Source: Algibacter pectinivorans | Lineage (GTDB): Bacteria; Bacteroidota; Bacteroidia; Flavobacteriales; Flavobacteriaceae | Assembly (NCBI RefSeq): GCF_900112595.1 | Contig: NZ_FOMI01000001.1 | Span: 186,001-250,000, forward strand | Direction of reading: 5' to 3' | DNA: 64,000 bases | In this document: piece after piece, positions 31,568-45,497 of the stretch | Layout: each line of letters opens with the position of its first letter | Position numbering within the stretch: position 1 is the stretch's first letter | The notes under the pieces: model-generated | The model's database searches: none | What the model was told of the DNA's origin: nothing | The model's input: the letters and a program-made list of their open reading frames with translations, nothing else | Program-made: the position numbers and the translations under genes

Positions 31568-31903
31568 ATGAGTAAAACATATTACGATCCCGCAGACCTT
31601 AGGAAATTTGGAAAAATCACCGAATGGAATGAAGAACTAGGAAATAAATTTTTCGAGTATTATGGTAAAGTTTTTGAAGACGGTGCTCTTACCGCTCGCG
31701 AAAAATCCCTAATTGCATTAGCCGTAGCCCACACCGAGCAATGTCCGTATTGCATAGACGCGTACACCAAAGACGGCCTGCAGCGTGGTGTTACCAAAGA
31801 AGAAATGATGGAAGCCATACACGTAGGCGCAGCCATAAAAAGTGGCGCAACCTTAGTTCACGGCGTTCAAATGATGAATAAGGTAAACAAATTAGACGGG
31901 TAA
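31568..31903 (+). CDS. Arsenosugar biosynthesis-associated peroxidase-like protein
   Basis: A 111-aa carboxymuconolactone decarboxylase/AhpD-fold protein of the kind that accompanies ArsS (TIGR04169-type). The redox motif CPYC lies at residues 59-62 in the AhpD position, followed by IDAYTKDGL instead of the His-containing AhpD sequence. TAREKSLIALAVAHTEQ is the family helix. In some bacteria this family carries selenocysteine; here both positions are Cys. It is the first gene of the locus; arsS starts 154 bases later, with a structured repeat in between. Its role is presumed redox, not proven. Confidence 0.88.
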   Translation: MSKTYYDPADLRKFGKITEWNEELGNKFFEYYGKVFEDGALTAREKSLIALAVAHTEQCPYCIDAYTKDGLQRGVTKEEMMEAIHVGAAIKSGATLVHGVQMMNKVNKLDG

Positions 31904-31910
31904 AGTATTT

Positions 31911-31997
31911 TGGCGCTACCACAAGGGTCGGGCTTTCACTACTCGCTCCCTTCCGTTGGTCGGGGAGCTCAAACAAACCGTTCAATCCCTAGCGCAA
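31911..31997 (+). repeat. Structured intergenic repeat, copy 1
   Basis: Starts 7 bases after the peroxidase-like stop codon. The left end GGCGCTACCACAAGGGTCGG and right end CAATCCCTAGCGCAA are shared with the copies at 42726 and 57084. GCGCTA (31913-31918) pairs with TAGCGC (31990-31995). The middle holds a different hairpin, GCTCCC with GGGGAGC. No coding potential is apparent. Confidence 0.8.
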
Positions 31998-32057
31998 CTA
32001 TCAAACAAGTGCTATTTTCAAAAAGGAAACAGTATCTTAATTAATAAAAACGTATTA

Positions 32058-33113
32058 ATGGCAACAAAGTCCCTAAAAAAACGCGAAAGCGACTTAGCAA
32101 ATAGCAACAGGCAGCTAGATATTCTATCTAACGGTATATTTAAAAACGGCGAATTACCAACCTTTAAAGATAAAATTTCCGAGACTAGCCAATTTCCGCT
32201 TAAAGCGAAAAAACTAGAAATTCTGCAAATAAATGTAGGCTACATGTGTAATCAAGTTTGCGATCACTGCCATGTCGATGCAGGTCCAGACCGTAAAGAA
32301 ATCATGACTCGCGATACCATGCGCCAATGTTTAGAGGTTATAAAAAACACAGGTGCACACACCTTAGATTTAACAGGTGGCGCCCCAGAAATGAATCCAG
32401 ATTTCCGTTGGTTTGTCGAGGAAGCCGCCAAAGCAGGTATAACAGATTTTATTGTACGATCCAACCTAACAATAATTCGTGCAAACAAAAAATATTACGA
32501 TTTACCAGAGTTTTTTAAAAAGCACAATGTACATGTAGTTAGTTCTATGCCACACTGGACTCGCGGAAAAACCGATAAACAACGTGGTGACGGTGTTTTC
32601 GATAAATCTATACGAGCCTTACAAGATTTAAATGCCATTGGTTATGGTATGCCAGATAGCAAACTCAAACTCGATTTAGTGTATAACCCTTCGGGTGCCT
32701 TTTTACCGGGCGACCAAGCTGCCATGGAAAAAGATTTTAAAAAGGCTTTATTAGAAGATTTTGATATTAAATTTCATAACCTTTTTGCCATAACAAATTT
32801 ACCAATAGCTCGGTTTTTAGACTATCTAATAGCCTCAGAAAACTACGAAGATTATATGTATGCTCTAGTAGAAGCCTACAACCCAATGGCCGTAAAAAAT
32901 GTTATGTGTACCAACACACTATCTGTAAGCTGGGATGGTTATTTATTTGATTGCGATTTTAATCAAATGTTAGGCTTACCAGTAAATAGTAAAGCCAAAC
33001 ACATTTCAAAATATAACGCAGAGCTACTCGAAGGTCGAAACATTGTAATTTCGCAACACTGCTACGGCTGTACCGCTGGTGCGGGTAGTAGTTGCCAAGG
33101 TGTAGTGGCATAA
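32058..33113 (+). CDS. arsS: Arsenosugar biosynthesis radical SAM protein ArsS
   Basis: A 351-aa radical SAM enzyme of the ArsS (TIGR04167) family, which transfers the 5'-deoxyadenosyl group of SAM to methylated arsenic to give the precursor of arsenosugars. The [4Fe-4S] motif is C64-x3-C68-x2-C71 in GYMCNQVCDHCHVDAGP, and LDLTGGAPEMNPDFRWFV is the SAM-binding GGE-like region. The C-terminal Cys-rich motif CYGCTAGAGSSCQG has C335, C338 and C346. All are ordinary Cys codons. The start is the ATG at 32058 (MATKSLKKRE); an upstream TTG frame would read through the repeat. The next gene starts 26 bases on. Confidence 0.93.
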   Translation: MATKSLKKRESDLANSNRQLDILSNGIFKNGELPTFKDKISETSQFPLKAKKLEILQINVGYMCNQVCDHCHVDAGPDRKEIMTRDTMRQCLEVIKNTGAHTLDLTGGAPEMNPDFRWFVEEAAKAGITDFIVRSNLTIIRANKKYYDLPEFFKKHNVHVVSSMPHWTRGKTDKQRGDGVFDKSIRALQDLNAIGYGMPDSKLKLDLVYNPSGAFLPGDQAAMEKDFKKALLEDFDIKFHNLFAITNLPIARFLDYLIASENYEDYMYALVEAYNPMAVKNVMCTNTLSVSWDGYLFDCDFNQMLGLPVNSKAKHISKYNAELLEGRNIVISQHCYGCTAGAGSSCQGVVA

Positions 33114-33138
33114 CTTAAAATAATAACCCTACTAAGGA

Positions 33139-33819
33139 TTGAGAAACAAAACAGCCATATTAATTTTTGCTAATTCTGCCGAAAAAGAAATTATTTCAAA
33201 ATCTTTTTTGGCAAAACAATTGTTTGAGACTTTAAACGCTCAAACCATAAAAATTGCAAAAAAAACAGGCCTGCCATATTTTGTATACTCAGAACATGAG
33301 CAAGTTGGGTTTTCATTTGGAGAGCGCTTTACAAATGCTATTCAATCGGTTTACAATAAAGGCTTCGACCAAATAATCACAATAGGTAATGACACCCCCC
33401 ACTTAACAACCAAGCACTTATTAAAAACAGCAAAAAAACTAGAAACAAGCGCTATAGTTTTAGGGCCGTCAACCGATGGAGGCTTTTACTTAATGGGGCT
33501 TAAAAAAACTCTTTTTCATAAAAACACCTTTTTAAAATTACCCTGGCAAACTTCAAGTCTAAATAGAAGCATTTCAAAAATATCGGCTTCAAAACAAATT
33601 AAAATTTACTATTTAGAGGTTTTAACAGATATCGATACTGTATCAGATATATCAATAGTTTTAAACAACTTTAAAGCTATATCAAAAACAATAAAATCCT
33701 TTCTAATACAATCGTTATATATAAAACAAGGTATTTCTACTTTTCAAAATATAACGTTCATAAATCATATACTACAGCTATTCTTTAATAAAGGATCACC
33801 TGCATTGCTTCACTTTTAG
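33139..33819 (+). CDS. DUF2064 (TIGR04282-like) protein, divergent copy
   Basis: A 226-aa GT-A-fold protein related to the rSAM-associated transferase family TIGR04282/DUF2064. Conserved parts are ITIGNDTPHLTTKHL and LGPSTDGGFYLMGL followed by LPWQTSSL and LTDIDTVSD. The N-terminal motif that is GKVKTRLAKTIG in the second copy (41209) is here EKEIISKSFLAKQLF, so the basic nucleotide-binding signature is lost. The start must be the TTG at 33139: an in-frame stop lies two codons upstream (33133-33135) and no ATG occurs before the conserved region. A 25-residue C-terminal tail is extra. It may be regulatory, or an enzyme of changed specificity. Confidence 0.78.
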   Translation: MRNKTAILIFANSAEKEIISKSFLAKQLFETLNAQTIKIAKKTGLPYFVYSEHEQVGFSFGERFTNAIQSVYNKGFDQIITIGNDTPHLTTKHLLKTAKKLETSAIVLGPSTDGGFYLMGLKKTLFHKNTFLKLPWQTSSLNRSISKISASKQIKIYYLEVLTDIDTVSDISIVLNNFKAISKTIKSFLIQSLYIKQGISTFQNITFINHILQLFFNKGSPALLHF

Positions 33820-33834
33820 TAACACCAATTTTTC

Positions 33835-33854
33835 TTAAGACCTAACTGTCTTAA
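33835..33854. promoter_or_regulatory. Inverted repeat upstream of the SusC gene
   Basis: TTAAGAC (33835-33841), six bases, GTCTTAA (33848-33854): a perfect 7-bp inverted repeat 35 bases before the SusC start and 16 bases after the DUF2064 stop. There is no U-tract, so an operator is as likely as a weak terminator. Confidence 0.35.
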
Positions 33855-33888
33855 TAATTAACAACATACATTTTACAAAACAATTAAA

Positions 33889-36800
33889 ATGAAGCAAATC
33901 ATACAACTTTGTATGTTACTAGCCTTAATTGGTAGTACACATGCACAAAAAACCATTTCGGGTCGCGTTACAGATGCAATAACTAATAGCCCGATAGCCT
34001 TTGTAAACATCCAAAACGGTAACAATGGCACTATTACCAGCGAAGATGGCACATACCAAATAAACATAACGCAAAACACTAATAAATTAACATTTTCTTA
34101 CTTAGGTTATAAAACACAAATAATAACCATAGGAAATCAACCTATTATAAATGTTGCTTTAAGCGAAGATGCATCAAAGTTAGGAGAAATAGTAATAACA
34201 GCTTTAGGTTTAAGTAGAGACACTAAAGAATTAGGTTATGCAGTACAAGCAATAAACTCCAAAAGCTTAAACCAGGTAAAAACTGTTAATTTTCTAGACA
34301 ACCTTCAAGGTAAATTAGCTGGTGTTACAGTAACTCAAGGAGCAACTGGCGTTGGATCTTCGTCAAAAATAACCATTAGAGGTGAGTCGTCCTTTTCTAA
34401 TAATAACCCTCTATTTGTAGTAGATGGCATACCAATTAATAACGAAACCGTTTTTAACTTTACTAATGAGGCCGCAGCTGGTTTTCAAGAAATAGATTTT
34501 GGTAACGGTGCTATGGAAGTTAATCCAGACGACATAGAATCTGTAACCGTATTAAAAGGAGCTAATGCAGCAGCGCTTTATGGCACACGAGCATCAAATG
34601 GAGTCATAGTAATAAAAACCAAAGATGGTAGTAATAAAAAAGGGTTTAGTGTTAGTCTTAGTACAGCTATAACTGTGGATTCTGCATTTAAACTACCAGA
34701 TTTTCAGAATACGTACGGACAAGGGCAATCTGGACAGTTTGAGTATGTTGACGGTTTAGGAGGAGGAACTAGTGATAATATTACCTATTCTTGGGGTCCA
34801 CGCTTAGATGTTGGCAATTTAATTCCGCAGTTTGACAGTCCGGTTCAATTAGCCGATGGATCGTTTGTTAGAGGTGCAGATACTGCATTATACAACAATT
34901 TACCAATATTAGCTACTCCTTTTAACTCTAACCCTAACAACTTAAAAGACTTTTACAGAACAGGAGTTACCACAACAAACAACATAGCAATCTCCAATGG
35001 TTTTGATTCCGGAAACTACAGACTATCCTTCACCGATTTAAGAAGTGAATCCATTATACCAGGCGTAAATTTAAACAGGCAAACGGTTGCAGCTAAACTT
35101 AATTTTAAACCTTCAAGTAAAACAGAAATAAATACATCGTTTAATTACGTAAACTCCAGTAGCGACAACAGGCCATCAAACGGTTATGGTAGCGAAAATG
35201 TTAATTACTCGCTAGTGGCTTGGGGACCGCGTTCTTTAAACATTAATAATTTAAAAAATTATTGGCAACCAGGTTTAGAGGGAATACAGCAATATTCGTT
35301 CAATTATACGTTTTTTGATAACCCATATTTTATTCTTTTAGAAAACAGAAACGCATTTAATCGAGACAGAATATTTGGAAACATCTCATTTAAACAAAAC
35401 ATCACCCAACACTTAAGTATATCCTTAAGAACAGGAATGGATTACAGCACAGAAACGCGCAAATTACAACGAAATTATAGTAGTAACCGTTTTCAAAATG
35501 GCGCATATGCCGAACATGATGTTTTATATAGAGAAATTAACACAGATTTTTTAGTTAATTACCAAAACACGTTTAAAGATTTTTCATTGGATATTTCGGC
35601 AGGTGGTAATCGTTTTAACCAAACAGCATCCACAAAACAATCTCAAACTGTAAATTTAGCACAACCTGGTATTTTTAGTTTAAACAATGCGGCATCCCCT
35701 ATTGAAGTATTTCAATTTGAAAGTGAAAAACAAATCAACTCACTTTACGGTATAGCTAAACTAGGATATAAAAACTATTTATATTTAGACATTACAGGAC
35801 GAAACGACTGGTCTAGCGCCCTAGCAACACCCTTTTCGGTAGGTGAAACCTCGTTTTTTTACCCATCTATTTCGACCAGTTTTATATTATCAAATAGCGC
35901 CAACTTACCAAGTGCGTTTTCATTTGCAAAACTGCGTGCCGGAATAGCGCAAGTTGGAAACGACACAAGTGCCTACCAAACTTCCGGAGCTTTTGTTTCG
36001 CAAACCACCTTTAATGGAGAACCCACTTTTAGCGACCAAAACTTTATTCCAAACACAAACTTAAAACCAGAACAAACTACAAGTTACGAGTTTGGTGCCG
36101 ACTTACGTTTTTTTAAAGACCGCTTAAATTTTGATTTTACCTACTATAATTCAAAAACAAAAGACCAAATTATTTCGCTACCAGTAGCCATATCATCAGG
36201 CTATAACCAACAAGTTATTAATGGCGGTGAGGTAAACACAAAAGGAGTCGAACTGGTACTAGGTATAACACCAATAAAAAACAGTAATCTAAAATGGAAC
36301 ACTACTTTTAATTTTGCAAGTAATAGATCCACCATTACCAATTTGCCACAAAACAACGGCCGACTTACTTTAGCCTTTAGCCGAATTTACGATAGCGCAA
36401 ACCAAACAGTATGGTTTCAAGTCGAAGAAGGTGGACGTATTGGAGACCTATATGGTACTGGATATTTAAAAAACGAAAACAACGAATTTATTATTGATGA
36501 TAATGGCAGGTTCATAGCAGACAATACTCTAAAAAAAATAGGGAATTACAACCCAGATTTCACCTTGGGATGGAACAATAATTTTAGTTACAAAAACTGG
36601 AATTTAAACTTTTTATTTGACTGGCGACAAGGCGGCGAAATAGTATCCAGAACGCGTGCATTAGGAAACGTTGGTGGCCAATTGGCTGAAACGGCATATA
36701 GACCAGAAGAAGGTATTATTGCGCAAGGTGTTAACCAAACTTCTGGACTACCTAATACTATTGCTGTAACCGCAGAGAGTTACTACCGCCAGTTTTACGA

Positions 36801-37083
36801 CAGAAATCACGAAGAAAACAATGTTTACGACGCTTCCTTTTTAAAGCTCCGCCAATTTGCAATTGGATATAACTTCAAGTTAAACGATGGATTTTTAGGA
36901 ATACAGAACGGAGCCGATTTAAGCATCTCTATTACAGGAAACAATTTGTTTGCAATAACCGAAAACCCACATTTTGACCCCGAACAAATTGCTGTACAAG
37001 GTAACAATTTTGTAAGCGGTGTCGAAGACTTAAGTTACGCAACTTCCCGAAGTTTTGGGTTTAAGGCTGCTATTAATTTTTAA
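33889..37083 (+). CDS. SusC/RagA-family TonB-linked outer-membrane protein
   Basis: A 1064-aa TonB-dependent transporter of the SusC family. A signal peptide ends near THAQ. A carboxypeptidase-regulatory-like domain follows (about residues 20-95, ISGRVTDAITNSPIAFVNI), then the plug with LQGKLAGVTVTQ, ITIRGESSFSNNNPLFVVDGIPI and GANAAALYGTRASNGVIVIKTK, and a 22-strand barrel ending in FGFKAAINF. The partner SusD gene starts 11 bases later. SusC/D pairs usually import oligosaccharides, but no glycanase lies nearby. Instead the pair is inside an arsenosugar locus and next to a sodium symporter, so its cargo could be a small molecule such as an organoarsenical, nucleoside or sugar derivative. Confidence 0.94.
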   Translation: MKQIIQLCMLLALIGSTHAQKTISGRVTDAITNSPIAFVNIQNGNNGTITSEDGTYQINITQNTNKLTFSYLGYKTQIITIGNQPIINVALSEDASKLGEIVITALGLSRDTKELGYAVQAINSKSLNQVKTVNFLDNLQGKLAGVTVTQGATGVGSSSKITIRGESSFSNNNPLFVVDGIPINNETVFNFTNEAAAGFQEIDFGNGAMEVNPDDIESVTVLKGANAAALYGTRASNGVIVIKTKDGSNKKGFSVSLSTAITVDSAFKLPDFQNTYGQGQSGQFEYVDGLGGGTSDNITYSWGPRLDVGNLIPQFDSPVQLADGSFVRGADTALYNNLPILATPFNSNPNNLKDFYRTGVTTTNNIAISNGFDSGNYRLSFTDLRSESIIPGVNLNRQTVAAKLNFKPSSKTEINTSFNYVNSSSDNRPSNGYGSENVNYSLVAWGPRSLNINNLKNYWQPGLEGIQQYSFNYTFFDNPYFILLENRNAFNRDRIFGNISFKQNITQHLSISLRTGMDYSTETRKLQRNYSSNRFQNGAYAEHDVLYREINTDFLVNYQNTFKDFSLDISAGGNRFNQTASTKQSQTVNLAQPGIFSLNNAASPIEVFQFESEKQINSLYGIAKLGYKNYLYLDITGRNDWSSALATPFSVGETSFFYPSISTSFILSNSANLPSAFSFAKLRAGIAQVGNDTSAYQTSGAFVSQTTFNGEPTFSDQNFIPNTNLKPEQTTSYEFGADLRFFKDRLNFDFTYYNSKTKDQIISLPVAISSGYNQQVINGGEVNTKGVELVLGITPIKNSNLKWNTTFNFASNRSTITNLPQNNGRLTLAFSRIYDSANQTVWFQVEEGGRIGDLYGTGYLKNENNEFIIDDNGRFIADNTLKKIGNYNPDFTLGWNNNFSYKNWNLNFLFDWRQGGEIVSRTRALGNVGGQLAETAYRPEEGIIAQGVNQTSGLPNTIAVTAESYYRQFYDRNHEENNVYDASFLKLRQFAIGYNFKLNDGFLGIQNGADLSISITGNNLFAITENPHFDPEQIAVQGNNFVSGVEDLSYATSRSFGFKAAINF

Positions 37084-37093
37084 AAAATAAAAC

Positions 37094-38536
37094 ATGAAAA
37101 AACTTATATATATCCTAACAACCTTAACACTTTTTACTGCATTTAGCTGTACAAAAGACTTTGAATCTATAAATACAAACCCTAATGCACCAGTAACCGT
37201 GCAACCAAGCCTGTTATTAAGGCAAGTTATTTATAATTTTGGCGAAGAAATGAGTTATGAAGGCTTTGTAGCCGGCGATTTACTAGCACAACATCGAACG
37301 GCTTTAGATTTTAATTTATTTGATAGGCATGCTTTAAAATCACCACAACTGGGTGGAAATCCATGGCCTATATTTTATACCAACTTGCGCGATAACGACA
37401 TTATTTTAAAGCAATCGCAAACTACCGAAGCTTTTAAAGTATATGAAGGTCCTGCTTTAATTTTAAAAGCTTACCTAACAGCTAACTTAACCGATTTGTA
37501 TGGAGACGTCCCTTATTTTGAAGCCTTTAATGGTGTAAGTGGTACAGTAACTCCTAAATACGATTCGCAAGAATCCATATACCTTAACCAAGGTGGCATT
37601 TTAGATAATCTAGACAAAGGTATTTTAGCTATTGAAAATTATAATGATGCCATTGCCTTGGAAGGCGACATTTTATTTAATGGCGATTTACAAGCATGGA
37701 TTCGTTTTGCAAATGCAGTAAAAATTAAAAGTTTGCTTAGAATTTCTAATAAAATAGATGTTTCAGAAGATTTACAAGCACTTTTTGATGCAGACAATTA
37801 CATAAAAACAAACGCTCAAAATGCCGTTTTCGACTTTACAAATTCAGACCCAAATAGTTTTAGATTAGCGCAATTACGAATTGGCGACTTTAACAATTTC
37901 GTGCTTTCTGAAACTATGGAAGACATTCTTGTTAACTTAGATGACCCTAGAATAAGCACCTTTTTCAAACCTTTTTCTAATGCCACATCCAATGCATTTA
38001 ATGGCTTACTAAATGGTATTGATGCCACATCAACATCTGTTACATTAGCTGATTATTCATTGGCAGGCAGCATGTTTAGAGAAGACACCTCAACATTAGA
38101 CGCGAATTTTATAACCGCTTGGGAGGTCCATTTTGCCTTAGCCGAAGCCGCCGAAAAGAATTTAATTATCGCAGACCCAGAGCAACTTTACAATAAAGGT
38201 GTAGCTTTAGCTTTTGAGTATTGGAATACAACATTACCTAGCAACTATTTAACAGGTAACGCCGCTTTAAATGCACCAAACACAACGCCACTAGAACAAA
38301 TAATAACACAAAAATGGATTGCAAATATAATTAACGGCTATGAAGGTTGGACGGAATACAGACGCACTGGATTCCCTGCTCTAAAACCAATTGCTGCAAG
38401 TTTAAACAACAACTTAATTCCGGTAAGAATGCCATACCCCGAAGAAGAAGCCACATTAAACGCCGAAAATTATAATGAAGCAGCAAGCGCGACAAATAAC
38501 AACAGCATAAATAGTCCCGTATGGTGGAATAAATGA
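37094..38536 (+). CDS. SusD/RagB-family (SusD-like) lipoprotein
   Basis: A 480-aa surface lipoprotein of the SusD-like_2 type, the lid that captures substrate for the SusC barrel. The lipobox is LFTAFSCTK with Cys near residue 19, followed by ESINTNPNAPVTVQPS, a typical start for this branch. TPR-like helices span most of the rest, with YEGWTEYRRTGFPAL near the C-terminus as the family signature. The gap to SusC is 10 bases and to the symporter 7 bases, so all three are one operon. Confidence 0.92.
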   Translation: MKKLIYILTTLTLFTAFSCTKDFESINTNPNAPVTVQPSLLLRQVIYNFGEEMSYEGFVAGDLLAQHRTALDFNLFDRHALKSPQLGGNPWPIFYTNLRDNDIILKQSQTTEAFKVYEGPALILKAYLTANLTDLYGDVPYFEAFNGVSGTVTPKYDSQESIYLNQGGILDNLDKGILAIENYNDAIALEGDILFNGDLQAWIRFANAVKIKSLLRISNKIDVSEDLQALFDADNYIKTNAQNAVFDFTNSDPNSFRLAQLRIGDFNNFVLSETMEDILVNLDDPRISTFFKPFSNATSNAFNGLLNGIDATSTSVTLADYSLAGSMFREDTSTLDANFITAWEVHFALAEAAEKNLIIADPEQLYNKGVALAFEYWNTTLPSNYLTGNAALNAPNTTPLEQIITQKWIANIINGYEGWTEYRRTGFPALKPIAASLNNNLIPVRMPYPEEEATLNAENYNEAASATNNNSINSPVWWNK

Positions 38537-38543
38537 AATAACT

Positions 38544-39878
38544 ATGGAAACAATTAAAATTCAGTGGTTATTAATTATTATATCTAGTTTAATATTATTT
38601 ATTATTTCGCCATTTGCAAAATCTACAAACCAGTTTTTTAGAGCAACTAAAGTTAAAAAGTCTCCAAACACACTCGTGTTAACAGGGAGTCTTATAATTT
38701 CTTGGATTTTTGCCAAAAGCATTACCAATGCCGCAAACCTTGGGCTAGACTATGGTATTGTTGGCGGCGTAGCCTATGCTGGTTACTACTTATCTTTTGC
38801 TGTGGCAGGTTTAATAATTTATAAATTACGCACCAAAGGCGGTTTTACAAGTATCCACGAGTTCTTAACTACTAAGTTTGGAAAAGGCGCCATGGCCTTA
38901 TTTTCCATATTAATAGCCATTCGCTTATTCAACGAGGTTTGGAGTAATACCATGGTTATAGGCAGTTACTTTGGAGAAACTGGTAGCACACCCTATTATT
39001 GGTCTATTATTTTATTCACAATCTTAACTTTAGCTTACGCTATTAAAGGCGGATTAAGCAGTTCTATTTTTACCGACATTATTCAAATGGGGTTATTTTC
39101 AGTACTATTAATTATTATTTTAAGTACTGTTTTTTCAGTAGATAATTTCAGAACTCAAGAAGTTATATCCTCAGGAACATGGAGCTTTGAGCTTGGTTTA
39201 AACTTATTTTTTGCTGCCATAATTCAATCGTTTAGCTACCCATTTCACGACCCAGTTCTAACCGATAGAGCATTTATTAGCACACCCAAAATAACCCGAA
39301 AAAGTTTTCTTCTTGCTAGTGTATTAGGTGCTATTTGTATCATTCTATTTTCAATTATTGGTATATACGCCCAAACGCAAGGTTTAAAAGGACAAGCTGC
39401 TGTAGAGGTAGGAAAAGCGTTTGGTGTGGTTATTTTACTAGCTATTAATTTTATTATGATAACCTCGGCAGCATCAACCTTAGACTCTACCTTTTCGTCA
39501 TTTTCAAAATTATTATCTGTCGATTTAAACCTAGGAAAAAATTTAACTTTTGGCAGAGCCTCAATGGTTGCCATTGCCATATTAGGTACGCTTCCTGTTT
39601 TTTTAAACGCCGAAATATTATCGGCCACAACAATTTCAGGAACAATGGTTATTGGTTTAACTCCCGTTTTTATGTTTTGGAATATTAAGGTTCCAAAAAT
39701 CAGTTTTTATTTAAGTATCATTTGTGGAATAATTTTTGGTTTTGTTTTAGTGTTTAAACTATTTCCAGAAGCACTCATTTTCACAAAAGGAAAATATGCC
39801 GATTTACTATGGGTAAATGTTTGGGGTATTTTAAGTTGTATCATTTTATATTTAGCACCCAAATGGATAAAAAAATAG
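38544..39878 (+). CDS. Sodium:solute symporter family protein
   Basis: A 444-aa transporter of the SSS family with about 12-13 hydrophobic segments. LIISWIFAKSITNAANLGLDYG, YKLRTKGGFTSIHEFLTTKFG and ITSAASTLDSTFSSFSKLLSVDL (the sodium-site Ser/Thr region) identify it. It is slightly shorter than most members. It follows SusD after 7 bases and its end overlaps the metallophosphoesterase start by 16 bases, so it would take the SusC/D cargo across the inner membrane using the sodium gradient. The substrate is unknown. Confidence 0.87.
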   Translation: METIKIQWLLIIISSLILFIISPFAKSTNQFFRATKVKKSPNTLVLTGSLIISWIFAKSITNAANLGLDYGIVGGVAYAGYYLSFAVAGLIIYKLRTKGGFTSIHEFLTTKFGKGAMALFSILIAIRLFNEVWSNTMVIGSYFGETGSTPYYWSIILFTILTLAYAIKGGLSSSIFTDIIQMGLFSVLLIIILSTVFSVDNFRTQEVISSGTWSFELGLNLFFAAIIQSFSYPFHDPVLTDRAFISTPKITRKSFLLASVLGAICIILFSIIGIYAQTQGLKGQAAVEVGKAFGVVILLAINFIMITSAASTLDSTFSSFSKLLSVDLNLGKNLTFGRASMVAIAILGTLPVFLNAEILSATTISGTMVIGLTPVFMFWNIKVPKISFYLSIICGIIFGFVLVFKLFPEALIFTKGKYADLLWVNVWGILSCIILYLAPKWIKK

Positions 39879-40690
39879 AACATCTAGGACAGCTATCTGG
39901 CAAAACGTTGCTATTTGGTGGCGTTTATAGCAACTTGCAAGCCTTAGAAGCTTTAAAGCAAGTGGCCGAAGCCGAAAATATTAGTCCAGAAAATTGTATT
40001 TGCACGGGCGATATTGTTGGTTACTGCGCCCAACCAGAAGAAACCGTGCAATTATTTAAAATTTGGAACCCTAGAAGTATAGCTGGTAACGTAGAAATTC
40101 AATTAAGCGAAGGTGCCCAAGATTGCGGCTGCGATTTTAAAAAAGGCTCTAGATGCGACGGGTTTTCACAACAATGGTACCCCTACGCTCAAAGCCTACT
40201 ATCCCAAGATTCTTTAGCTTTTATAAAACAATTACCAGACCACTATACCTTTAATTACGCAGACAAAAAAGTAATGGTTGTTCATGGTTCGTATTTTAAC
40301 ACCTCCGAGTTTATTTTTAAATCCACACCCTGGGAAACCAAGGCTATAAATTTTAAGGTAGACCAAAGCGATGTTATTATAGCTGGCCATTGCGGATTAC
40401 CATTTAACGATGCACAAAACAACAAACTATGGTTAAATCCCGGCGTAATTGGCATGCCTGCAAACGATGGTAACCAAACCGTTTGGTATGCTATTTTAAA
40501 CGATTTAAATGGTAAACTAGAATATAAACACCACTCGTTAAACTACAATTACAGATTAACTAATACATTAATGCAAAACGGCTTGCTTCCTGAAGAATAT
40601 GCTAGAACCATAGTTACAGGCATTTGGGATAATACCGAAATTTTACCAGCCGTAGAAAGTGGATTGCAAGGATTCGGAATAAATCTGTAA
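39863..40690 (+). CDS. Cys-rich variant metallophosphoesterase-fold protein
   Basis: A 275-aa protein with the calcineurin-like phosphoesterase fold in which several metal ligands are replaced. Motif I, normally DxHGN, reads GVYSN (residues 20-24); GD at 49-50 is kept (CTGDIVGYC); GNHD is GNVE (75-78); VHG is kept near residue 141; GHTH is GHCG (175-178). A Cys-rich insertion DCGCDFKKGSRCDGF adds C88, C90 and C98, with C45, C47 and C55 nearby. I start it at the ATG at 39863, overlapping the symporter end by 16 bases. It may be a metal- or arsenic-binding relative and not a phosphatase. Confidence 0.8.
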   Translation: MDKKIEHLGQLSGKTLLFGGVYSNLQALEALKQVAEAENISPENCICTGDIVGYCAQPEETVQLFKIWNPRSIAGNVEIQLSEGAQDCGCDFKKGSRCDGFSQQWYPYAQSLLSQDSLAFIKQLPDHYTFNYADKKVMVVHGSYFNTSEFIFKSTPWETKAINFKVDQSDVIIAGHCGLPFNDAQNNKLWLNPGVIGMPANDGNQTVWYAILNDLNGKLEYKHHSLNYNYRLTNTLMQNGLLPEEYARTIVTGIWDNTEILPAVESGLQGFGINL

Positions 40691-40721
40691 TTTTATTAAA
40701 TCTATTAAGACTAAAAAACAA

Positions 40722-41216
40722 ATGAAAAACACCCTTTTATTTTTAGTATTACTATGTAGCAGTCTATTATTTGCGCAAAAATCAATTGATAAGCTACTAG
40801 CAAAACATAATGATAATAGCGTGCCCTATATTACACCTCAAGAACTAGCAATACCTAAAACAGACTTGGTATTATTGGATTCTAGAGAATTAAAAGAATA
40901 TAAAACCAGTCATTTAAAAAACGCCATTCATGTAGGGTACGATCACTTTAAAATACATAAAGTTGAAACACTAATACCAGATAAAAACGCAGAAATAGTG
41001 GTGTATTGCTCAGTTGGTATTCGATCAGAATCTATTGGAGATAGCCTTAAAAAAGCTGGATATTCTAACGTAAAAAATCTTTATGGTGGTATTTTCGAGT
41101 GGAAAAGCAACAACTTTCCTGTTTATAACGCCATTGAAAAAGAAACAGACAGCATTCATACCTTTAATAAAGTATGGAGTAAATGGCTAAAAAAAGGCAT
41201 AAAAGTTTATGAATAA
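40722..41216 (+). CDS. Exported rhodanese-like domain protein
   Basis: A 164-aa periplasmic protein with a signal peptide ending near LLFAQ and one rhodanese domain (about residues 45-140). The active-site loop YCSVGIRS contains the catalytic Cys and the CxxGxRS pattern of sulfur-transfer or arsenate-reductase-like rhodaneses, and LDSRELKEYKTSHLKNAIHVGY is the domain start. Its last 8 bases overlap the start of the TIGR04282 gene. In this setting a role in thiol-arsenic chemistry is conceivable, but that is inference. Confidence 0.88.
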   Translation: MKNTLLFLVLLCSSLLFAQKSIDKLLAKHNDNSVPYITPQELAIPKTDLVLLDSRELKEYKTSHLKNAIHVGYDHFKIHKVETLIPDKNAEIVVYCSVGIRSESIGDSLKKAGYSNVKNLYGGIFEWKSNNFPVYNAIEKETDSIHTFNKVWSKWLKKGIKVYE

Positions 41217-41838
41217 AGAATTAGTAATTGTTTTTGTAAAAAACATAAAATTAGGCAAGGTAAAAACAAGGCTTGCCAAAACTATTGGCAACCAAGGCGC
41301 TTTCGATGTTTATACAGAGTTAGTCGGCGTAACCGAAAAAGCAACACAAAAACTAAAGGCCAATAAACGCATTTATTTTTCCGAATCTATTGTAGAAAAC
41401 CAATGGAATTCCCATCAAAAATTTGTTCAAGAAGGCGCAGATTTAGGCGAACGCATGAAAAACGCGTTTATAAAAGGCTTTAAAGACGGCTACAATCGTA
41501 TTGTTTTAATTGGTTCAGATTTACCAGACATTACAGCAAACCATATTAACAAAGGACTCGAAGCCTTAACACAACACGACATTGTTTTTGGACCAGCCGA
41601 AGATGGTGGCTATTATCTAGTTGGCTTATCAAAAGCACACAATTTTATTTTTAATAATAAACCGTGGAGCCAAACACATTTACTGCAAGAAACCTTAAAC
41701 GAAATAAAGGAAAAACAAGTAACATTTACTACCTTAGATACTTTAAACGACATTGATAATTTTGAAGATTTAATAGCTTCAGAATTTTATAAAACTAACA
41801 TAGAATTACAAAAAAAAATCAAACAATTACAAGGTTAA
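41209..41838 (+). CDS. TIGR04282-family arsenosugar biosynthesis glycosyltransferase
   Basis: A 209-aa DUF2064 GT-A-fold protein of the family annotated as arsenosugar-associated transferase 1. The N-terminal motif VKNIKLGKVKTRLAKTIG carries the nucleotide-binding basic residues; LIGSDLPDITANHI, FGPAEDGGYYLVGL and NDIDNFEDL follow. Compared with the divergent copy at 33139 all signature residues are present, so this is the likely active enzyme. It overlaps the rhodanese gene by 8 bases. A weak terminator-like hairpin lies downstream, before the phosphorylase gene. Confidence 0.88.
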   Translation: MNKELVIVFVKNIKLGKVKTRLAKTIGNQGAFDVYTELVGVTEKATQKLKANKRIYFSESIVENQWNSHQKFVQEGADLGERMKNAFIKGFKDGYNRIVLIGSDLPDITANHINKGLEALTQHDIVFGPAEDGGYYLVGLSKAHNFIFNNKPWSQTHLLQETLNEIKEKQVTFTTLDTLNDIDNFEDLIASEFYKTNIELQKKIKQLQG

Positions 41839-41858
41839 ATAAATGCTTTCAAATTAAG

Positions 41859-41884
41859 AAAACCTAGCTAAAATATAGGTTTTT
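41859..41884 (+). terminator. Weak terminator-like hairpin before the purine phosphorylase gene
   Basis: Stem AAAACCTA (41859-41866) with TAGGTTTT (41876-41883) and a 9-base loop; the T-tail is only five bases. It could reduce read-through from the upstream operon into the phosphorylase gene. Confidence 0.5.
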
Positions 41885-41909
41885 AAACATTCTATTTAAA
41901 AAAATAAAC

Positions 41910-42722
41910 ATGATGCAATTTATAGAAGAAACAGTAGACTACTTAATAAATAAAGGATTCGATAAACCAGAAATAGGTATTATTTTAGGCACCGGTTTAG
42001 GGCAATTAATTGAAGATGTAGAAATAATTAGGGAGGCAAGTTATAATCACATTCCAAATTTCCCAACAGCCACAGTCGAGTTCCACAAAGGAAAACTTAT
42101 TTACGGTATTATGGGCGGTAAAAAAGTAATAGTTATGCAAGGGCGTTTTCACCTTTACGAAGGCTATTCCCTGCAAGATGTCACCTACCCTGTTCGCGTT
42201 ATGGAAAAACTAGGTATTCACACCTTATTAGTTTCTAATGCATCTGGCGCCATAAACCCTAACTTTAAAAAAGGCGAACTAATGCTTATTGAAGATCATA
42301 TAAATCTTCAAGGTAGCTCGCCACTTGCCTTTAAAGGTGTGGAACTTTTAGGTGAGCGCTTCGCAGATATGAGCGCGCCTTACAATGCCGCTATAAATAC
42401 TAAATTTAAATCCATAGCAGCGCAACATGATATAACATTGCACGAAGGCGTATACGCTAGCGTTGTTGGGCCTCAATTAGAAACCAGAGCCGAATATCGC
42501 ATGTTAAAAATTATAGGAGCAGATGCTGTTGGCATGAGCACAGTTCCAGAAATTATAGTTGCCAATCATTTAAATTTAAAAGCAGCCGCGGTTTCTGTAC
42601 TAACAGACGAGTGCGATCCAGATAACCTAGCCCCCGTAGATATTGCCGAAATTATAGCAATGGCCGAAAAAGCAGAACCCAATATGGTTACACTTTTTAA
42701 AGAATTGATACTTAGCTTATAA
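41910..42722 (+). CDS. Purine-nucleoside phosphorylase (trimeric type)
   Basis: A 270-aa trimeric purine nucleoside phosphorylase, cleaving the base from (deoxy)ribonucleosides with phosphate. GIILGTGLGQLIEDV is the phosphate loop, QGRFHLYEGYSLQDVTYPVRVM and NASGAINPNFKKGELMLIEDHIN follow, then GVYASVVGPQLETRAEYRML and GADAVGMSTVPE. The base-contact region reads SVLTDECDPDN, where Asp stands at the position that is Asn in 6-oxopurine-specific enzymes. It starts 71 bases after the TIGR04282 gene. It could be the housekeeping enzyme or the one that frees adenine from the ArsS product. Confidence 0.92.
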   Translation: MMQFIEETVDYLINKGFDKPEIGIILGTGLGQLIEDVEIIREASYNHIPNFPTATVEFHKGKLIYGIMGGKKVIVMQGRFHLYEGYSLQDVTYPVRVMEKLGIHTLLVSNASGAINPNFKKGELMLIEDHINLQGSSPLAFKGVELLGERFADMSAPYNAAINTKFKSIAAQHDITLHEGVYASVVGPQLETRAEYRMLKIIGADAVGMSTVPEIIVANHLNLKAAAVSVLTDECDPDNLAPVDIAEIIAMAEKAEPNMVTLFKELILSL

Positions 42723-42725
42723 CAT

Positions 42726-42818
42726 TTGGGCGTTACCACAAGGGTCGCGCTTTCCATTATATCTTTTTTTGCCACTTATAAAAGCAAAAAAAGGATGCCA
42801 CTACAATCGCTAACGCAA
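42726..42818 (+). repeat. Structured intergenic repeat, copy 2
   Basis: Starts 4 bases after the phosphorylase stop codon. GCGTTA (42730-42735) pairs with TAACGC (42811-42816), where copy 1 has GCGCTA/TAGCGC, a compensatory change. ACCACAAGGGTCG follows the left end and CACTACAATCGC precedes the right end. The middle is a different hairpin, ATCTTTTTTTGC (42761-42772) with GCAAAAAAAGGAT (42784-42796). Confidence 0.82.
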
Positions 42819-42898
42819 CGTAGAACTAGTAAATATAATTAGTACTCAAATAAAGCCCTTTAGGTTTACAAAACCTGATGGGTTAAAACTCCAAACCC

Positions 42899-43807
42899 AT
42901 GGAAACCTATATAGAACTCATAAAAAAATCCTATTCTGGGTATTGGAACTACCTAAAATACGAATTATTAGACCTTAACCATTGGGATAATTATTTTTAT
43001 GGACTAATTGTTATATCCATTGCCGTATGGTTACTAGAAATTATTTTCCCCTGGCGAAAAAACCAATCTATATTCAGGAAAGACTTTTGGTTAGACACCT
43101 TTTACATGTTTTTCAACTTCTTTCTTTTAAACCTTATTATATTAATTGCACTATCTAACACCGTTGCTCATTTTTTTAATTCGTTATTACAAAATATAGG
43201 ATTGTCGCTAGAAAGCTTTCAGCTTTTCGATGTTAATAATTTACCTAAATGGCTCGGTTTACTGGTATTCTTTGTAGTTTCAGATTTTGTACAATGGAAT
43301 ACGCATAGACTTTTACATAGATTCACTTTTTTATGGAATTTCCATAAAGTACACCACTCTGTTAAAGAAATGGGGTTTGCCGCTCACTTAAGGTACCACT
43401 GGATGGAACCTGTAGTTTATAAATCCCTGCTTTACATTCCTATTGCTATTATTGGTAATTACAATGCTAACGATGTGGCAATCGTTTACTTTTTTGCCAT
43501 TACCATTGGGCATTTAAACCACGCCAATTTAGGTTGGGATTACGGCATTTTTAAATACATTTTTAATAACCCGAAAATGCATATTTGGCACCATGTAAAA
43601 ACCTTACCCAACCATGTTAGGTTTGGTGTTAATTACGGACTAACCTTAAGCATTTGGGATTATTTATTTAAAACAAATTACATCCCGCACAATGGAAAAG
43701 ATATTGAACTTGGGTTTCCGGGCGACGAATATTTCCCAAAGGACTTTATAAAACAAGAACTTTACCCCATGTTCTCAAAAAAATCGGAATCTGATTCCAA
43801 TCGTTAA
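42899..43807 (+). CDS. Sterol desaturase/fatty-acid hydroxylase family protein
   Basis: A 302-aa integral membrane di-iron oxygenase of the fatty-acid hydroxylase superfamily. The histidine boxes are HRLLH in NTHRLLHRF, HKVHH, HLNH in GHLNHANL, and HIWHH near residue 230. About four to five hydrophobic segments surround them. Members hydroxylate or desaturate sterols, sphingoid bases or alkyl-glycerols; the substrate here is unknown. It lies between the arsenosugar phosphorylase/transferase genes and the DUF547 gene, 10 bases before the latter, which suggests that a lipid is part of this pathway's product. Confidence 0.88.
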   Translation: METYIELIKKSYSGYWNYLKYELLDLNHWDNYFYGLIVISIAVWLLEIIFPWRKNQSIFRKDFWLDTFYMFFNFFLLNLIILIALSNTVAHFFNSLLQNIGLSLESFQLFDVNNLPKWLGLLVFFVVSDFVQWNTHRLLHRFTFLWNFHKVHHSVKEMGFAAHLRYHWMEPVVYKSLLYIPIAIIGNYNANDVAIVYFFAITIGHLNHANLGWDYGIFKYIFNNPKMHIWHHVKTLPNHVRFGVNYGLTLSIWDYLFKTNYIPHNGKDIELGFPGDEYFPKDFIKQELYPMFSKKSESDSNR

Positions 43808-43817
43808 AACACTCGAT

Positions 43818-44684
43818 ATGAAACACCTATTTGCTATTACACTAGTTCTGCTATTAGCCGCTTGCGCTGGAACAAAAAACATCCCCGAGCAACCAACAGC
43901 AGAACCCCAACCCATAGAAAAAACAGAACAGGTGGTTATAAAGCAAACCATACCTACTGAAACTACCCAAAAAACACCTGTAACCAAAGTACCAGAACCT
44001 ACAAAAAACATAGAACAAGAAACGACTGAAGTAGAAGTAAGCACCTTTAATCATAACGATTGGGATAGATTACTACAAAAACATGTTTCAGATCAAGGAA
44101 ACGTAAATTATAAAGCCTTAAAAACAAACAGAAAAGCCCTTACAGCATATATTATAAAATTAGGTAACCATGTACCAGATAACACTTGGTTAAAAGAAGA
44201 TAAACTAGCCTATTGGATTAATGCGTATAATGCCTTAACGGTCGATTTAATTCTGCGTCATTACCCAATAAAAAGCATAAAAGACATAAAAGATCCGTGG
44301 GACCAACGGTTCTGGAAACTAGGTAATAAATGGTATAATCTTAATGAAATTGAACATGATATTTTAAGAAAAATGGACGATCCTAGAATTCATTTCGCCA
44401 TTGTATGTGCTTCTTATTCGTGCCCTAAATTACAAAACGAAGCCTTTACAACTCAAACCATAAACAGTCAATTAAATGCGGCTACTAAAGCGTTTTTAAG
44501 TGATCCTGCTCGTAATGAGATTTCAGAAAACAGCATTAACATATCAAAGATTTTTCAGTGGTTTTCAAAGGATTTTAAACAACATGGTAGTTTAATAGAT
44601 TTTCTAAACAAGTATTCTGCTATTACCATTTCCGCGAAAGCGAAAAAAAGTTATAAAGATTATAATTGGGATTTAAATGAATAA
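43818..44684 (+). CDS. DUF547 domain lipoprotein
   Basis: A 288-aa lipoprotein with signal LVLLLAACAGT (Cys near residue 16), a Pro/Thr/Glu-rich linker (about 20-75), and a DUF547 domain. Conserved segments are KLAYWINAYNALTVDLIL, YNLNEIEHDILR and IHFAIVCASYSCPKL, with a Cys in the last two of the family's conserved positions. DUF547 proteins are found next to arsenosugar and redox genes but have no assigned activity. A copy of the GC-rich 13-mer lies at 44630-44642, encoding SAKA as in manC. A related protein is encoded at 50428. The TIGR04283 glycosyltransferase gene follows after 33 bases. Confidence 0.87.
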   Translation: MKHLFAITLVLLLAACAGTKNIPEQPTAEPQPIEKTEQVVIKQTIPTETTQKTPVTKVPEPTKNIEQETTEVEVSTFNHNDWDRLLQKHVSDQGNVNYKALKTNRKALTAYIIKLGNHVPDNTWLKEDKLAYWINAYNALTVDLILRHYPIKSIKDIKDPWDQRFWKLGNKWYNLNEIEHDILRKMDDPRIHFAIVCASYSCPKLQNEAFTTQTINSQLNAATKAFLSDPARNEISENSINISKIFQWFSKDFKQHGSLIDFLNKYSAITISAKAKKSYKDYNWDLNE

Positions 44685-44717
44685 AACTGAATCTAGTATT
44701 TTTTCGTAAGCATTACC

Positions 44718-45497
44718 ATGATAAGCATTATTATTCCAACCTTAAACGAAGAAGCCCAAATTGGCAAATTACTAGAGCATTTACTAGCAAATTCATTGGT
44801 TAAAATAACCAGAGAAATTATTATTGTTGATGGTGGTAGTCAAGATAATACAAAACGTATTGTTCAAGATTTCTCAAATTTCACCAATACCACAAACAAA
44901 AAGGCCTTTAATTATATTGACAACTCGGTTATAGATAAAAATGCCTCTACCGACGAAAAAACAGAAACGGCCATCTTACTTTTAAATTCTGAAAAAGGCA
45001 GAGCAAAACAAATGAATTTAGGAGCAAAAATGGCATCGGGAGATATTCTGTACTTTTTACATGCCGATTCGTTTCCTCCTAAAAAATTCGACCAACACAT
45101 TTTAAGTCAGGTAAAAAAAGGTAATGAAGCAGGCTGTTTTAGGATGCAATTCGATAGCTCACACTGGTGGTTACGTTTAGCTAGTTGGTTTACTAAATTT
45201 AACTGGCGCGTTTGCAGAGGTGGGGACCAAAGTCAATTTATAACAAAAGAGCTTTTTAACTCCATTGGACAATTTAATGAGAGCTACAGTGTTTACGAAG
45301 ATAATATTTTAATAAATGAATTATACGCTAGAAAACAATTTGTGGTGATAAATAAAAAACTTAAATCCTCGGCCAGAATGTATAGAAAACACGGCGTTTG
45401 GAAACTGCAATATTTCTATTGGAACATCTATTTAAAAAAGTGGCTTGGTGCCAGTGCCAATGATATTTATAGTTATTATAAGAAAAACGTTGGCTAG
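44718..45497 (+). CDS. TIGR04283-family arsenosugar biosynthesis glycosyltransferase
   Basis: A 259-aa family-2 glycosyltransferase of the TIGR04283 type (rSAM-associated transferase 2). ISIIIPTLNEEAQIGKLL opens the GT-A domain, IIVDGGSQDNT is the nucleotide-sugar loop, KGRAKQMNLGAKMASGDILYFLHADS carries the DxD-like HAD motif, and GGDQSQFITKELFNSIGQFNE is the acceptor region. An insertion of about 25 residues rich in Asn and Thr separates the first motifs. It is the last gene of the locus and ends 3 bases before the end of the convergent phosphatase gene. Confidence 0.9.
   Translation: MISIIIPTLNEEAQIGKLLEHLLANSLVKITREIIIVDGGSQDNTKRIVQDFSNFTNTTNKKAFNYIDNSVIDKNASTDEKTETAILLLNSEKGRAKQMNLGAKMASGDILYFLHADSFPPKKFDQHILSQVKKGNEAGCFRMQFDSSHWWLRLASWFTKFNWRVCRGGDQSQFITKELFNSIGQFNESYSVYEDNILINELYARKQFVVINKKLKSSARMYRKHGVWKLQYFYWNIYLKKWLGASANDIYSYYKKNVG

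Follow-up and report, generated by a model that had tools for sequence, protein, structure and literature searches.

An arsS-dependent SusC/SusD-type import module in an arsenosugar-type locus of Algibacter pectinivorans and its association with the absence of ArsM

The known arsenosugar biosynthesis genes comprise the methyltransferase ArsM (family NF038099), the radical S-adenosylmethionine (SAM) enzyme ArsS (TIGR04167), and partners of families TIGR04169, TIGR04282 and TIGR04283. ArsS takes a dimethylated substrate. Published work cited in PMC12159101 describes ArsS as adenosylating arsenic, and according to a review (PMC12608789) it is largely unknown how organic arsenic species are taken up. 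The other closest systems are the SusC/SusD loci of Bacteroidota, namely the polysaccharide utilisation loci and the sialic acid system NanO/NanU, which have in common with the present locus a SusC-SusD pair followed by an inner-membrane symporter. Here we describe a locus (positions 31568-45497) in a stretch of 64,000 nucleotides from Algibacter pectinivorans, hereafter the window (contig NZ_FOMI01000001.1, positions 186001-250000; contig 9 of genome G000 in our set). Its core holds the same genes as the known arsenosugar set, in the operon order of its relatives, but it lacks ArsM and carries an inserted import module. This module resembles the SusC/SusD loci, yet its run includes no glycan-degrading enzyme and its partners are arsS genes. 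The arsenosugar pathway and SusC/SusD uptake are each known; searches of the Creative Commons-licensed full texts of PubMed Central, a library outside which most subscription papers lie, turned up no account of such a module, nor of the combination, the tie to arsS, the protein fusions, an apparently rebuilt phosphoesterase or the inverse relation to ArsM. With belief and doubt about evenly balanced, we propose that the module is an acquisition system dedicated to arsS, which would bring in a methylated organoarsenical at a point between ArsM and ArsS and so replace methylation by ArsM.

The module reads gtA1-SusC-SusD-Na+ symporter-MPE and is inserted between arsS and a rhodanese gene. It consists of gtA1, a diverged TIGR04282-like gene (33139-33819), a SusC-type TonB-dependent transporter (33889-37083; TIGR04056, 608 bits against a cut-off of 368), a SusD-like lipoprotein (37094-38536; SusD-like_2, 295 bits), a sodium:solute symporter (38544-39878; SSF, 27.8 bits against a threshold of 22.8) and a degenerate metallophosphoesterase (MPE; 39863-40690; Metallophos_2, over its gathering threshold) whose start common to orthologues is 39863 and not 39809. 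NCBIfam scores were judged by curated cut-offs and Pfam scores by gathering thresholds. The SusC and SusD genes adjoin with 10 bases between them, as in a SusC/SusD uptake system. Relatives' loci were collected as 80 arsS neighbourhoods of 20 kb and queried with the window proteins, the window itself being excluded from the recount; two came from genomes that their code label places in the genus of the window (G044 and G265) and 78 from the listed best arsS matches, so that the sample is not a random draw. The SusC, SusD, symporter and MPE genes were absent from 73 of these 80 loci, and the remaining seven held symporter and MPE in all cases, SusD in five and SusC in four.

A profile built from eight MPEs was then searched against 299 genomes of the family. 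It found the protein in 40, one copy each at 435-540 bits, and all 40 were among the 215 genomes with arsS as opposed to none of the 84 without it (Fisher P = 8e-7). The module depends on arsS and not the reverse. In the 40 genomes the symporter lay beside the MPE without exception, and SusD (37), SusC (36) and gtA1 (35) nearly always accompanied it; the three genomes without SusD (G002, G168 and G121) retain ArsM or an ArsM-like gene. In 39 of the 40 arsS fell within the same fetched 20 kb, the unlinked case being G087. In 9 of the 40 genomes the module stands 5' of the peroxidase-like gene; in the rest it is mostly 3' of arsS, so that more than one site has received it. When the genomes of 84,980 species were scanned, 223 relatives came back, and the best 80 of the 223 were analysed. 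In these 80 loci the symporter always adjoined the MPE and arsS was present in 78, the other two being contig ends, together with SusD in 73, SusC in 72, gtA1 in 69 and arsM in 38; the closest named record for the MPE was that of Algibacter amylolyticus (95%). One of the module-bearing loci (L122, Flavivirga jejuensis) holds two tandem copies of arsM.

The association extends beyond the family. Among 395 genomes sampled class-wide, 14 had an MPE match of at least 349 bits and the next match scored 116 bits; arsS occurred in 13 of the 14 compared with 53 of the 381 others (P = 3e-10). Apart from the window genome, 12 of the 13 strong-MPE genomes have arsS, the exception being G674, an assembly of 840 contigs with its MPE on a contig of 3.7 kb. 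All 11 evaluable MPE genomes outside the family have SusC, SusD and symporter with the MPE, in one of them (G505) on the strand opposite to that of the MPE, and 7 have gtA1. Only 3 of the 11, however, have arsS in the same 20 kb, and since the module stands apart from arsS in the other 8, the co-occurrence of MPE and arsS is not mere linkage. A general sugar-uptake locus was considered and ruled out, because the MPE co-occurs with arsS class-wide even when the two are unlinked. A distortion of the count by weak MPE homologues was likewise ruled out: matches under 117 bits form a separate group of 17 genomes, of which 2 have arsS (G441 and G575), a proportion like the class background of 66/395. 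On contig 12 of G575 the weak homologue (81 bits) lies some 6 kb from arsS and near arsM (about 541935 and 547789).

The second main observation concerns ArsM. Clustering of open reading frames (ORFs) revealed one more gene that is present in 59 of the 80 relatives' loci and absent from the window, and this gene proved to be ArsM, the arsenosugar biosynthesis arsenite methyltransferase (NF038099, 563 bits against a cut-off of 400). In 55 of the 59 loci it lies directly 3' of the purine-nucleoside phosphorylase (PNP) gene and in 4 it lies 3' of arsS. The usual place is occupied in the window by a gap of 176 bases (42723-42898) between the end of the PNP gene at 42722 and the start of a hydroxylase gene at 42899. 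NF038099 was over its cut-off in 168 of the 299 family genomes, including G044 and G265. The first-pass annotation had remarked that the window holds no ArsM; the remark is correct, and it holds equally for the entire genome (3.65 Mb in 21 contigs, 99.98% complete), where the best NF038099 match had an E-value of 6.5e-6 and a search with PRK11873 reached 51.5 bits at best against a cut-off of 263. The genome thus has arsS without an ArsM recognisable by NF038099 or PRK11873, and the missing ArsM is the key fact of the locus. Within Algibacter three states were seen: arsM alone (G044 and G265), arsM plus module (L121 and L126), and a module whose locus has no arsM (the window, L117 of A. amylolyticus, L120 and L124 of A. 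lectus).

Genomes of the family were assigned to three ArsM classes (none, ArsM-like at about 1e-25 to 1e-32, and NF038099 over cut-off), read by hand and recounted once. The MPE was present in 21 of the 32 arsS genomes without any ArsM, compared with 19 of the 183 with one (Fisher P = 8e-11), and when only NF038099 matches over cut-off were counted, in 22/48 without and 18/167 with (P = 4e-7). Among ArsM-less genomes at least 90% complete it was present in 20 of 26. Four genera (g1, g45, g54 and g93) contain both a genome with ArsM only and a genome with the module only. We mapped these characters on a quick LG tree of arsS covering 169 of the 215 arsS genomes (G087 is missing, its arsS not having been fetched), on which the module changed 23 times and ArsM 15 times. 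Letting the loss of ArsM depend on the MPE gave a better model than independence (likelihood ratio, LR, 29.2; P = 7e-8). Note that incomplete genomes were ruled out as the cause of the pattern, given that the result held for the 157 tips at least 90% complete (LR 29.5, P = 6e-8; LR 31.1 if regain of ArsM was barred). Outside the family, 6 of 11 arsS genomes with MPE had no ArsM, as against 7 of 46 without MPE (P = 0.011). Another pattern in the 80 arsS loci provides a small supporting sign. Five of them (L041, L048, L079, L082 and L092) contain PHO4 phosphate-transporter genes just 3' of arsM, the family (PF01384) being assigned by a scan of the L079 copy; arsM is present in all five and the MPE in none of their genomes, which fits arsenate being fed to ArsM.

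The proteins themselves tie the module to the pathway. In nine genomes, seven of the family (G056, G075, G164, G176, G215, G270 and G286) and two outside it (G621 and G653), the MPE and the TIGR04169 peroxidase-like protein are encoded in one reading frame with a linker, and these fusions connect the module to arsenosugar biosynthesis independently of gene neighbourhood statistics. Motifs were counted in 131 MPE ORFs, which include repeats of the same genomes and represent 115 distinct sequences. In every one of the 115, G20 and Y22 stand at the DxH positions and G178 at that of the last His of GHxH, while D50, N76, H141 and H176 are retained (GD, GN, HG and GH). We take the former to be the positions of the metal site 1 ligands and the latter to be metal site 2. 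Judged by this usual ligand assignment, the MPE appears to have lost site 1 of a binuclear calcineurin-like metallophosphoesterase and kept site 2. The structure 3rqz and generic Metallophos_2 proteins belong to the same family (3rqz, E = 1.8e-12) and share the site 2 residues, but the module MPE differs from them in G20, Y22 and G178 at site 1 and in having C55, C98 and C177. Cysteines C55, C88, C90 and C98 occur in all 115 sequences, C177 in 110, C47 in 107 and C45 in 104. In five generic homologues, whose genomes lack arsS, site 1 reads D, H and H; these proteins possess C47, C88 and C90 but none of C55, C98, C177 and C45. Three cysteines are thus novelties that most or all module MPEs share, and the module cysteines may form a thiol site for arsenic. 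One of the nearest generic metallophosphoesterases outside the module, in a genome without arsS (G406; L305:39-365 and 513-1262), adjoins a gene for an ArsM-like methyltransferase. The other diverged protein, gtA1, lacks the GxxKTRLA motif that gtA2 retains; it keeps GxD, DGG and DxD and has a C-terminal NKGSP of its own (112 ORFs, 96 distinct).

How might such a system operate? The cargo would be a methylated organoarsenical, such as dimethylarsinate itself or some larger molecule from which it can be released. It would cross the outer membrane through SusC/SusD and the inner membrane through the symporter, and in the cytoplasm would be handled by the MPE and the TIGR04169 peroxidase-like protein before ArsS links its methylated arsenic with the adenosyl moiety of SAM. 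The imported arsenical would replace ArsM's own methylation, and lineages with the module would often lose ArsM, as the window genome has. The main argument for methylated arsenic is that arsM is lost and arsS kept in module genomes, which implies that the supply stands in for what ArsM makes rather than for what ArsS makes. We infer the identity of the cargo, the roles of the MPE and gtA1, and a gain of the module that preceded the loss of ArsM. More tentatively, and expecting this part to fail rather than to hold, we suggest a more specific form of dedicated methylated-organoarsenic uptake, in which the MPE exchanged a catalytic site of two metals and hard ligands for a single metal, and became a cysteine-rich protein that would bind or reduce trivalent methylated arsenic and pass the arsenic to the peroxidase-like protein and ArsS. 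A sequence search of the PDB with SusD matched many glycan binders.

Several observations weigh against replacement of ArsM by imported methylated arsenic. NF038099 ArsM is retained in 18 of the 40 MPE-bearing family genomes, and one more has an ArsM-like gene. Conversely, 11 of the 32 ArsM-less arsS genomes also lack the MPE, six of which are at least 90% complete (G046, G063, G098, G216, G257 and G268), and two genera show loss of ArsM with no module (g63, G063; g32, G257). These 11 genomes require a third source, methylation of an unknown kind or a pathway in decay, and their retention of arsS means that arsS can persist without either ArsM or module, a weak link in the argument. The tree follows arsS and not the species, and an independent-pairs test on its supported branches was borderline (median P = 0.0625, range 0.03-0.69), with 9 pairs of which on average 5.0 changed in opposite directions and 0.2 in the same direction. 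Outside the family, the comparison restricted to NF038099 gave 9 of 11 without ArsM against 22 of 46 (P = 0.051). SusC/SusD systems, moreover, usually carry molecules larger than dimethylarsinate, and the only PDB match of the symporter is the choline transporter CHT1 (9rws; E = 8e-7, residues 11-192), a remote likeness that permits no safe inference of substrate.

Cargo size is better suited by another explanation, that the module imports a finished or near-finished algal arsenosugar or arsenolipid which is cut down and rebuilt, with an MPE derived from a phosphodiesterase acting on phosphate-linked arsenosugars. The MPE does belong to a phosphoesterase family, and the module is found in Polaribacter, Algibacter, Winogradskyella and Leeuwenhoekiella, genera that include algae-associated bacteria. 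We nevertheless regard this explanation as unlikely, though deserving of real weight. Cargo entering after ArsS predicts that arsS would be lost, yet no arsS-less genome of the family has the MPE and class-wide the only one of 14 MPE genomes without arsS is a fragmented assembly; the site 1 ligands, furthermore, are missing from every distinct MPE sequence. The explanation could still hold if breakdown of the algal compound to dimethylated arsenic came ahead of the ArsS step. Since the module is linked to arsenic by gene content only, its cargo could also be free of arsenic, such as an acceptor, a lipid precursor, or a phosphate or glycerol compound used in the pathway, with an ecological loss of ArsM. 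The glycosyl- or nucleotidyltransferase-like gtA1 would suit the handling of a sugar or alcohol acceptor, and the joint presence of ArsM and MPE in 18 genomes agrees with it. Such a cargo does not predict, however, that ArsM rather than other pathway genes should be lost with the module, and we find the idea rather doubtful.

Two further explanations question the frame itself. If the arsenosugar name were a family label only, the target of the locus might be some other element or compound; with 215/299 genomes of the family, arsS is near-core, which would be odd for a rare toxic element, and we know of no arsS-locus product from any of these organisms. Yet an ArsM of the arsenosugar arsenite methyltransferase family lies directly 3' of the PNP gene in 55 of 80 loci and ArsS itself adenosylates arsenic according to the published work introduced above, which leaves this possibility a slim one. 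Finally, we give almost no credence to chance, under which the module would ride along near arsS as a passenger and shared ancestry would account for the ArsM pattern. The median of the independent-pairs test is not below 0.05 and the 23 and 15 changes on the arsS tree show some clustering, but a passenger would not be expected to accompany arsS when unlinked from it, to vary in its placement around arsS (ahead of the peroxidase-like gene in 9 of 40) or to have its MPE fused to a pathway protein.

Beyond the module, the locus is a compact run of intact ORFs, all on the plus strand, in which neighbouring genes overlap by a few bases or are at most 154 bases apart, with the gap behind the PNP gene as the sole exception. 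It opens with the arsenosugar biosynthesis-associated peroxidase-like protein of AhpD/CMD fold (31568-31903; TIGR04169, 192 bits against a cut-off of 120) and arsS (32058-33113; TIGR04167, 438 against 300), which probably starts at ATG 32058 rather than at TTG 31956. After the module come the rhodanese-domain protein (40722-41216; NF045521, 207 against 145), the TIGR04282 family arsenosugar biosynthesis glycosyltransferase gtA2, which is CofC-like (41209-41838), the PNP (41910-42722; PRK08202, 334 against 218), a fatty acid hydroxylase superfamily protein (42899-43807; PF04116, 88 bits), a DUF547 protein with a lipoprotein-like start (43818-44684; PF04784, 98 bits) and the TIGR04283 family arsenosugar biosynthesis glycosyltransferase (44718-45497; 224 against 182). 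The rhodanese has a signal-peptide-like start and may act outside the cytoplasm, though its neighbours look cytoplasmic.

Scans with NCBIfam and Pfam bore out the run of genes named in the first-pass annotation. Its assignment to an arsenosugar locus is supported by family membership, with ArsS and its TIGR04169, TIGR04282 (gtA2) and TIGR04283 partners all over curated cut-offs; of the two TIGR04282 genes it listed, the second exceeds the cut-off of 134 (193 bits) and the first, gtA1, falls below it (103). That the import genes belong with the locus holds insofar as the MPE occurs almost only in arsS genomes. The lipid role suggested for the hydroxylase and DUF547 genes is hypothetical. The enclosed genes do not form one set, however: when ArsS genomes were compared, genomes lacking the module, an outcome that the annotation itself had named as refuting, were found in abundance. 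To expect every ArsS genome to possess all of the enclosed genes was too strict, since it is the module that depends on arsS. The enclosed genes instead divide into an optional module and a recurring core operon of the peroxidase-like protein, ArsS, rhodanese, TIGR04282, PNP, hydroxylase, DUF547 and TIGR04283 genes, each present in 31-80 of the 80 loci. The peroxidase-like gene stands beside arsS in 78 of them, followed in frequency by gtA2 and PNP (64 each), a DUF547 match (57), rhodanese and TIGR04283 (53 each) and the hydroxylase (31). A second type of arsS neighbourhood was also seen, in which the peroxidase-like gene and arsS have no PNP nearby; behind them come a gene for a TetR-family regulator (cluster c18, 15 loci) and conserved genes on the minus strand. 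This type includes L037, L050, L057, L062, L068, L071, L078, L085, L090 and L091.

Genes of arsenosugar type are near-core in the marine-rich Flavobacteriaceae, where arsS is over cut-off in 215 of 299 genomes at the level of the family as compared with 66 of 395 class-wide. If the module imports methylated arsenic, it would offer genes and mutants with which to tell makers from recyclers of marine organic arsenic, and would constitute a clear case in which the product of one lineage replaces the enzyme of another. The metallophosphoesterase, apparently rebuilt, is a concrete target for structural work. Should the more tentative form of our proposal be true, these bacteria would draw on arsenic that algae or other microbes have already methylated and could drop ArsM; arsenic would then be for them a building element to scavenge and not a poison to detoxify.

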